A stretch of DNA of 64,000 nt, from contig CALZJE010000009.1 of the NCBI GenBank assembly GCA_945787715.1, positions 1 to 64,000 of the forward strand, given 5' to 3'. The stretch's first letter is position 1. Every line of letters starts with the position of its first letter. The notes under the pieces were generated by a model, which made no database searches, was not told where the DNA came from, and saw only the letters and a program-made list of their open reading frames with translations. Both the position numbers and the translations under genes were made by a program. Below are positions 36,035-39,131 of this stretch, piece after piece. This DNA is from an uncultured Ectothiorhodospiraceae bacterium. GTDB lineage: Bacteria; Pseudomonadota; Gammaproteobacteria; S012-40.

Positions 36035-36928
36035 AATACCTCTGCCTTCATCAAGAATATCTCATAACAGCTAAGTTATAATCATTAAAATCTCGCTTAT
36101 CTTATATTTGAATTCCATATTGTGATTTCAAATTTCGATAAACCCAACAACATAAGGAGAATTCCTTAAACATCTGAGCCGGTGAAAATAAGCGTATTTT
36201 CATATCTCCCGTTATCGGTAGCGGCACAATCAAACTTAACCATCCTACGTCAGATAAACTGTCACTTAACAAGTGATTAGTTGCTAGATCGTATCAGCTA
36301 GGAGAGCAGTAGTGACTATTTCCTGTACATTCATATCTCCAAACTCTAATAACGAAACGGCCAGTTTTTATAAATTCCAACAAATTGCGAAATATATAAG
36401 AATCTCATGAAGTTTGATTTTTTAACCATTAAGTTTTAATAAGGAAACTTCAAACTATAAATTGAGCATTCTAGAAATTAACGTTAAGTGATTTATTGCC
36501 AATCAGATAAAACCATTTGATAGCGAGCGATTGAAGAATGTTCTTTGTAGTATATCCAAAGCTACTAAAAAGTGAAAAAGCTGAAATAATTAAAATTCTG
36601 CACCATAATTTACTACTTCCCGTTACTTAGTAAAAAAACAGTATATATTGCTTCTACCTAACATATAGAAATACTCAAATTATTCTAAATGAAAATTCGT
36701 TAATTATTGCTGGGCCATCGAGCAGACAAGCTTTTATTCTTATTAAAGAATACTCTTCTCTATTGAAATACCAGAGTAATTTCCTCATGAATTATAATAG
36801 AATAAACCTATAATTCCCATAAAAAAATACTTGCACAATACATTAGTAATTTGGTATGTTTTTACTGCCGAACAAATAAGGCATTCACGTAAATATTAGC
36901 CATTAATTCTTCTAGAGGGGCAGAAAAA

Positions 36929-37039
36929 ATGCAAAAAGACGATCACATCATGAAACACGACATTGTTTATGTTGGGTATCTACTAATTATTTGTATAATC
37001 TTAGGAACACTTGTTTCGACTTTGTCTTTTCACGGTTAA
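36929..37039 (+). CDS. Single-TM microprotein P1 of a tandem paralogous family
   Basis: AGAGGGG SD at 36914-36920; MQKDDHIMKHDIVYVGYLLIICIILGTLVSTLSFHG*; not in the provided ORF track; followed by a terminator. Confidence 0.8.
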   Translation: MQKDDHIMKHDIVYVGYLLIICIILGTLVSTLSFHG

Positions 37040-37063
37040 GCCAAAGAAATAATAAGTACTGTT

Positions 37064-37097
37064 AAAAAAACGCAGCGTGTTAGCTGCGTTTTTTTTC
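37064..37097 (+). terminator. Rho-independent terminator after microprotein P1
   Basis: CGCAGC-GTGTTA-GCTGCG flanked by A7 and T8. Confidence 0.9.
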
Positions 37098-37203
37098 GTC
37101 TCTTTTAAAGCCATTCGATTAACCCAGCACCCTACTCAGTCAATACCCTCTTTTTTTATAGTAAAATTACTTGATATTAAAACATCTTGGATGTATCTTT
37201 ATA

Positions 37204-37244
37204 TTGTCAGTTATATATTACATGCGAGATATATTAACTGACAA
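37204..37244. promoter_or_regulatory. Inverted repeat upstream of microprotein P2 (operator or 5'-UTR hairpin)
   Basis: TTGTCAGTTA (37204-37213) / TAACTGACAA (37235-37244), arms extended by TATAT. Confidence 0.5.
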
Positions 37245-37278
37245 ACAGTACTATAAATTATATTTGGGAGTATTACTT

Positions 37279-37392
37279 ATGGCTAAAAAAAGAACTAGCG
37301 TAATGACGGAAGATGCATTGTATGTAGGATTTATTACTGTATTAACTGTGGCACTAACAATTCTTGGTGCAAGTTTGTCTTTCCATAGTTAA
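37279..37392 (+). CDS. Single-TM microprotein P2
   Basis: GGGAG SD at 37266-37270; MAKKRTSVMTEDALYVGFITVLTVALTILGASLSFHS*; the 73-aa track ORF starting at 37171 is this frame with a spurious upstream start. Confidence 0.85.
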   Translation: MAKKRTSVMTEDALYVGFITVLTVALTILGASLSFHS

Positions 37393-37440
37393 ATAATTCA
37401 GCAATAAATCAAATTTAGCTGAGTAAGCGACGTGAATGCA

Positions 37441-37480
37441 GGTAAAAAAGGTGATTCCCTCACTTATCATCTTTTTTACC
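37441..37480. terminator. Hairpin/terminator after microprotein P2
   Basis: GGTAAAAAAGGTGAT...ATCATCTTTTTTACC (one G-T wobble). Confidence 0.65.
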
Positions 37481-37724
37481 TATAAAACAAATAGATAGAA
37501 TAGATAAATGAAATAACCTAGTTATTGGATCAAGAATACCCCTCAAAATATGGGTATAAAATACCCTGCCATAGATAGGCTTAATAGCAAACCCATAATA
37601 TCTCTATGGTTGACTCCTTGACCAAACACTTCTGTGAGCCTATTGTTTTATCTAATCAGTATTTTTCACTGATTAAATAACAGTGCTTAATTAAATTTTC
37701 AACACTTTAAGAGGGAGAAGTGTA

Positions 37725-37838
37725 ATGGCTAAACAAAGAACAAATATTGCGGGCGATGATGCATATTATGTAATTTACCTTGCAGTAATATGGCTCATTC
37801 TAACGATCGTGATATCTAATTTATCGTTTCATGGCTAA
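37725..37838 (+). CDS. Single-TM microprotein P3
   Basis: GAGGGAGAAG SD immediately upstream; MAKQRTNIAGDDAYYVIYLAVIWLILTIVISNLSFHG*; not in ORF track. Confidence 0.85.
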   Translation: MAKQRTNIAGDDAYYVIYLAVIWLILTIVISNLSFHG

Positions 37839-37862: not shown

Positions 37863-37894
37863 AAAAAAGAGCCGAATATCTCGGCTCTTTTTTT
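37863..37894. terminator. Bidirectional terminator between microprotein P3 and the YcgL-like gene
   Basis: AAAAAAGAGCCGA-ATATC-TCGGCTCTTTTTTT. Confidence 0.9.
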
Positions 37895-38481: not shown

Positions 38482-38562
38482 ATGGGTAATGCAACTGTTC
38501 CAGTAGCTTTCATGGCCGTAATAATGCTAATGTACGTAGTTCTTCCACTAACTACTGCATAA
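38482..38562 (+). CDS. 26-aa single-TM microprotein P4
   Basis: GAGGGG SD at 38468-38473; MGNATVPVAFMAVIMLMYVVLPLTTA*; followed by a perfect 14-bp hairpin. Confidence 0.6.
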   Translation: MGNATVPVAFMAVIMLMYVVLPLTTA

Positions 38563-38912: not shown

Positions 38913-39131
38913 GTGGACGGAAATCTTATACCCGAAGTTAATGGTTGCTATCTAGATATGCGCTGCAGAATGTTTAAAGTGCGAATGTTAAGCTATCTGG
39001 ATAGAAAAGTAAGCTGTGTAGTGATAGAAGACACTAACGGGAATATCAAAACATTGAATATCAAAAATTGGCAAAACATGCAGCTTATTCCGTGCTGTAA
39101 AACAAGCAACGAAGTCCGCCATATTTCATAA
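38913..39131 (+). CDS. Hypothetical 72-aa Cys-containing small protein
   Basis: GTG start preceded by AGAGGG; MDGNLIPEVNGCYLDMRCRMFKVRMLSYLDRKVSCVVIEDTNGNIKTLNIKNWQNMQLIPCC... Confidence 0.5.
   Translation: MDGNLIPEVNGCYLDMRCRMFKVRMLSYLDRKVSCVVIEDTNGNIKTLNIKNWQNMQLIPCCKTSNEVRHIS

Follow-up and report, generated by a model that had tools for sequence, protein, structure and literature searches.

The window analysed here, a 64,000-nucleotide stretch from an uncultured Ectothiorhodospiraceae bacterium, carries on its forward strand three paralogous short genes (P1, P2 and P3, Table 1), each encoding a microprotein with one predicted transmembrane (TM) helix. The peptides exist exactly as the original prediction had them, with the same coordinates, and the Tyr-to-LSFH spacing that it reported is indeed 18 residues in all three. 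The pattern D-x-x-Y-V...LSFH[GS]-stop with identical spacing is found in 3 of the 183 ATG ORFs of 30–45 residues in the window, against ~7e-7 occurrences expected over the whole window (a composition-only estimate), and is therefore not a product of chance. A genome search recovered a fourth family copy in the same genome (MSKKRTNVMADDAAYVIFLAATTIGLAVLGWSLAFHG, contig C2). AlphaFold2 models P2 as one helix spanning residues 8–36, with a core pLDDT >90.

The expression signals proposed for these genes are largely as described. Purine-rich Shine–Dalgarno (SD) sequences are seen, and the suggested hairpin or terminator of its own for each gene is strong for P1 and P3; that of P2 is an A/T-rich hairpin judged by eye, its loop being too long for the consensus terminator scan. 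The promoter of the A-type gene (P1 in the window) can be aligned in 8/8 genomes as TTGca-N17/18 plus an extended −10 element, with TTG, TTTG and TA as invariant columns. Inverted repeats lie in the leaders of P2 and P3; the P3 repeat has arms of 13 nt against a longest arm of 11 nt among 30 shuffles, whereas the arm length of the P2 repeat, taken alone, falls inside the shuffled range. Short and diverse inverted repeats also occur in B-type leaders of other genomes, and as regulatory elements these repeats are suggestive only; one common operator was rejected, given that the arms differ and mostly stay inside the shuffled range. Downstream lies a gene for a 26-residue microprotein (LP), and between this microprotein block and htpG is a further ORF of 72 residues with a GTG start.

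Table 1. Features of the microprotein locus (positions in the window) and short peptides of the oxidase cluster (positions in L087, which is contig C15:27001–47000 of the same genome).
Feature	Position	Strand	Evidence or remark
P1 promoter TTGCAC-N18-TATGTT, extended −10 (TTTGG ahead)	36831..36860	+	alignment in eight genomes, seven genera
P1, A-type microprotein, 36 aa, single TM helix (coding part 36929–37036, stop 37037–37039)	36929..37039	+	profile match E=2.3e-13; orthologues in seven relatives; codon-position pattern
P1 intrinsic terminator	37064..37095	+	terminator scan
Inverted repeat TTGTCAGTTA...TAACTGACAA, P2 leader, possible 5′ stem-loop or operator	37204..37244	+	
P2, B-type microprotein, 37 aa, single TM helix (coding part 37279–37389, stop ends at 37392)	37279..37392	+	profile match; AlphaFold2 helix
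A/T-rich hairpin 3′ of P2, probable terminator	37441..37480	+	read by eye
Inverted repeat TTATCTAATCAGT...ACTGATTAAATAA, P3 leader	37648..37681	+	13-nt arms
P3, second B-type microprotein, 37 aa, single TM helix (coding part 37725–37835, stop ends at 37838)	37725..37838	+	profile match E=2.9e-15
P3 intrinsic terminator	37863..37893	+	terminator scan
LP microprotein, 26 aa, MGNATVPVAFMAVIMLMYVVLPLTTA, companion of the A/B pair	38482..38562	+	own profile E=7.8e-12; orthologues
72-aa ORF, GTG start, VDGNLIPEVNGCYLDMRCRMFKVRMLSYLDRKVSCVVIEDTNGNIKTLNIKNW...	38913..39131	+	
29-aa peptide directly upstream of ccoN, MATFAGACGILLAFSSMWFSWYIMNKMKE	L087 12151–12240		
42-aa peptide, MVTEIGIN...	L087 2585–2713		
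48-aa peptide after CcoP-like gene	L087 8841–8987		
32-aa peptide near cytochrome c genes	L087 16234–16332		

Conservation of the A–B pair and its LP companion

A tandem pair of these genes is present in 7/12 relatives of the same taxonomic family (G001, G002, G003, G004, G007, G008 and G009), which span seven genera, the window's own included; counting the window's genome, the carriers comprise eight genomes of seven genera, with the frame intact in all eight. One member of the pair is A-type (consensus xDDHIMKHDxxYxxYLAV..., “IMKHD”) and the other B-type (MAKxRTDIxxDDxxYVxYL..., “RTDIxxDD”), and the A–B order is constant across the pair-bearing relatives, B being duplicated in the window's genome as P2 and P3. 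The tandem of three thus holds for the window, but the unit that is conserved is the A–B pair with its 26-residue companion.

Mismatch rates at codon positions 1/2/3 are 0.42/0.22/0.62 for A and 0.47/0.32/0.68 for B, and the residue similarity of both exceeds that of all 200 column-permuted controls, a substitution pattern that, as judged from sequence, is that of selected coding sequence. The codon-position pattern, the orthologues and the promoter, SD and terminator signals bear out the proposal that these ORFs are selected coding genes with their own expression signals; on these comparisons, P1, P2 and P3 are genuine conserved genes of one family that gene finders have missed.

The C-terminus behaves differently from what had been proposed. 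FH[GS] is present in the window's genome, G001 and G003 and absent from the orthologues of G002, G004, G007, G008 and G009, where the ends read MA (SMA), PH, GG, LV, SM, SL or LA; most members from other taxonomic families are also without it. LSFH[G/S] is consequently no constant family feature, and the suggestion that the terminal His serves as a metal or cofactor ligand falls with it, in that a residue of a tail not conserved in the family cannot provide the core function. Across 30 family sequences, the only invariant residues are Asp12 and Leu26 (P2 numbering).

LP constitutes a family separate from A/B, with [FVY]V[VIL]LP close to its end. Five further genomes have an orthologue next to their A/B pair, and a second, weaker copy occurs on contig C41 of the window's genome. 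The LP mismatch rates (0.37/0.16/0.64 at codon positions 1/2/3) resemble those of A/B; the corresponding permutation test of LP residue similarity, with 200 column-permuted controls, was not significant.

Co-occurrence with a divergent cbb3-type oxidase cluster

The genome of the window encodes a cbb3-type oxidase, with the His ligand pattern and Tyr region in CcoN and CxxCH in CcoO, on a contig (C15) other than that of P1–P3. The oxidase supercluster comprises genes for a CcoN-like COX1, CcoO, a CcoG-like protein and monohaem cytochromes c, alongside thioredoxin-like, FGE-sulfatase-like, spermidine synthase-like, MotA/ExbB-like and MotB-like genes. CcoN matches PF00115 (E=6e-73) and aligns over 430 residues with Pseudomonas stutzeri CcoN (3mk7_A, E=1e-60), keeping the His ligands and the active-site Tyr region; the COX1 domain, ligands and Tyr region are those of the C-family of haem-copper oxidases. 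Between the window's genome (L087:10692–12101) and a genome of a different taxonomic family (G096, C65:28321–29727), CcoN is 91% identical. We observe that this variant combines extreme conservation across families with a large distance from canonical CcoN; searching the open literature by phrase yielded no paper on a noncanonical or divergent cbb3 oxidase.

A profile built from the window's own taxonomic family only (A2) retrieved relatives encoded by short ORFs from other families within the class, 9/10 of these matches lying in CcoO-positive genomes; its long-frame matches (G258, G335, G391 and others) were chance matches within large ORFs and were dropped. With the improved profile (A5, E<=1e-4) the family is detected in 18/387 genomes of the class Gammaproteobacteria, 17 of which carry the divergent CcoO, itself present in 33/387. 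The association (Fisher p ~1e-19, nominal, since it presumes independent genomes and related genomes are not) extends to all eight family-bearing genomes unused in building A5 and, counted by taxonomic family, to 7/8 families (p ~4e-8, assuming ~150 families sampled). It also follows the oxidase subtype: among the 387 genomes, the peptide accompanies CcoO of >=68% identity in 11/11 cases and more distant CcoO in 6/22 (p 6e-5). The peptide is hence not universal for the enzyme, with 16/22 distant-subtype genomes having no detectable member, although short profiles can miss diverged members and these absences are accordingly uncertain. Two exceptions fit assembly gaps. G333, a 91% complete assembly, has neither ccoN nor ccoO, but its MotA-like gene is 63% identical to that of the cluster, and one of its small ORFs, next to a Bact_hydrolase-like ORF, is COX1-like; in G091, a weak match (E=0.007), a CcoN fragment sits at a contig end.

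The two gene sets are also physically close in some lineages. A family copy lies ~15.4 kb from ccoO in G036, G096, G191 and G337, 8 kb away in G201 and 9 kb away in G230; placement in the cluster covers three taxonomic families and co-occurrence at least seven. In the window's family the trio lies near htpG and the oxidase cluster on a different contig, and here the link is one of co-occurrence only. In two other taxonomic families, five genomes have LP inside the cbb3 supercluster, at 6–9 kb from ccoO; LP and A/B, unrelated neighbours in the window's family, thus both belong to the oxidase cluster in other families.

Several further features were observed. The supercluster holds additional uncurated conserved microproteins in the window's genome (L087, Table 1), and peptides like these recur in other taxonomic families. 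A 43-residue peptide, M(D/E)ATWYEIL(I/V)WTLVPT...KDHFH(I/F)KPKA(G/P)V, is encoded directly upstream of a family member in three genomes, at L053:9845–9976, L054:10366–10497 and L060:9634–9765. COX1-like ORFs of 173–187 residues, matching the last third of COX1 only (profile ~300–434), occur in or near the cluster (L058:2600–3127, L096:16810–17334, L157:1363–1905 and G000:C15:41223–41546, G000 being the window's genome); ORFs of one kind have a Bact_hydrolase-like ORF after them and, in L058 and L096, LP before them. In many genomes the oxidase cluster also includes the MotA/ExbB-like and MotB/OmpA-like pair (L087:18524–19531 and neighbours), a combination that looks unusual at the locus of a terminal oxidase.

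Candidate roles of the microproteins

CcoQ/FixQ and CcoH are small single-TM subunits of cbb3 oxidases. The P1–P3 family shares these two properties but has no Pfam match, and the CcoQ-like position in the oxidase cluster is filled by a separate peptide of 44–50 residues right after the CcoP-like gene. Closer in kind is CcoM, a 36-residue single-TM subunit of the P. stutzeri cbb3 oxidase (PDB 5djq chain N) that is connected with the stability of the enzyme (Kohlstaedt 2016, as cited in PMC10433244 and PMC8267372): it resembles P1–P3 in size, in its single helix, in being a stand-alone small peptide and in its tie to a cbb3-type oxidase, whereas P1–P3 have no detectable sequence similarity to it and come as several paralogues with a second peptide type. 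CydX, a 37-residue subunit of cytochrome bd oxidase (PMC4325964), is comparable in length and in serving a terminal oxidase as a single-helix supernumerary subunit (a role that P1–P3 would share), but belongs to another enzyme family, and the P1–P3 family gives no CydX-type match in Pfam or NCBIfam (30 members).

None of the 30 members of the P1–P3 family matches a Pfam or NCBIfam family; the best sub-threshold Pfam match of single members (E=0.0028 to DUF5964, 2/30 members) is regarded as noise. Searched with the A5 profile (hmmsearch), the PDB returned no chain at E<=10, although the 36-residue 5djq_N was in the library. Two other candidates were set aside: the Prli42 stressosome peptide (NF033880), whose single weak match to P1 (E=0.66, 9.8 bits against a cutoff of 27.5) is a chance one, and the extra helices of particulate methane/ammonia monooxygenase, PF02461 not being found in the window's genome (the control was silent too).

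The original prediction offered two roles, small accessory subunits of a membrane complex or type I toxin-like peptides, and it is the former that co-occurrence and co-localisation with the divergent cbb3 oxidase cluster favour. We consider it reasonably probable, from comparative sequence analysis, that P1, P2, P3 and the fourth copy are supernumerary or assembly subunits of this C-family haem-copper oxidase; the best explanation would make them CcoM/CydX-like in role while not homologous to either. Each peptide would be a single-span inner-membrane protein expressed from its own promoter, its helix (approximately residues 8–36) inserting in the membrane such that the conserved Asp just ahead of the helix and the mid-helix Leu make packing contacts with the oxidase or with membrane proteins accessory to it. 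An Asp at the membrane boundary and a helix Leu would be natural contact residues, and their packing may stabilise the oxidase complex or help it mature, a role played in other oxidases by CcoM and CydX. A, B and LP would then occupy different sites on one complex, the extra B copies being isoforms.

Counting against an oxidase subunit is the finding that the cluster copies mostly lie just upstream of the MotA/ExbB-like gene and not of ccoN or ccoO. The peptides could instead partner the proton-channel pair formed by the MotA/ExbB-like and MotB/OmpA-like proteins of the supercluster, the oxidase link being only indirect. In G036, G096, G191, G337 and G230 a copy precedes the MotA-like gene by 260–450 bp and shares its strand; the gene is present in 19/19 tested family-bearing genomes (the weak G091 included), and the five CcoO-positive genomes without it are also without the peptide. 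Its presence is not sufficient, however, many genomes having the gene and no detectable peptide (G005, G006, G034 and G117); another G230 copy and the G201 cluster copy are not upstream of it, and LP adjoins a COX1-like ORF instead. As oxidase and channel share one cluster, the two readings are not separated by these data, and we regard a channel partnership as unlikely, though a serious alternative.

It is rather unlikely that the co-occurrence merely mirrors shared ancestry, with the peptides serving another membrane process (e.g., redox or stress regulation) outside the oxidase system. The genomes are related, the peptides of the window's family lie near htpG and molybdate-transport genes, and members in G161 and G380 lie near birA/coaX-type genes; yet seven or more taxonomic families show the association, genomes outside the profile follow it too, and in three families it extends to placement in the cluster.

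Size, a single helix and stand-alone genes with their own promoter, terminator and leader inverted repeats would suit type I toxin-like hydrophobic peptides, but we hold this role to be very improbable: the A–B–LP order is kept across several genera, the substitution pattern is purifying, the promoter is conserved and presence tracks one respiratory cluster, unlike sporadic mobile modules; no antisense RNA gene was identified in the sequence, and no type I toxin family of the TisB, Hok or Ldr types in Pfam or NCBIfam was matched. That the ORFs are untranslated and alike through chance or recent non-coding duplication, an idea that their very small size and the want of a curated family might invite, is contradicted by the codon-position pattern, the intact frames and the conserved SD and promoter, and can practically be dismissed.

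A broader form of the oxidase-subunit reading is tentative. At least two single-helix families (the Asp-helix A/B family and the 26-residue LP), together with the cluster peptides of 29–48 residues, may build a multi-peptide shell or assembly scaffold on a cbb3 oxidase of this divergent type. The oxidase would also cooperate with the MotA/ExbB-like proton channel, and the respiratory complex would reach a subunit complexity far above that of known bacterial cbb3 enzymes; the A/B and LP families would, as part of this tentative proposal, be previously undescribed.

To our knowledge, few supernumerary subunits of bacterial terminal oxidases have been recognised, one reason being that very short ORFs escape gene finders. 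Comparative genomics here connects an uncurated microprotein family with a cbb3-type oxidase cluster that is divergent and at the same time highly conserved. Candidate subunits for biochemistry and structural studies can be listed directly from this link, which also indicates that microproteins associated with an enzyme, present in several copies, can be encoded away from its gene cluster.
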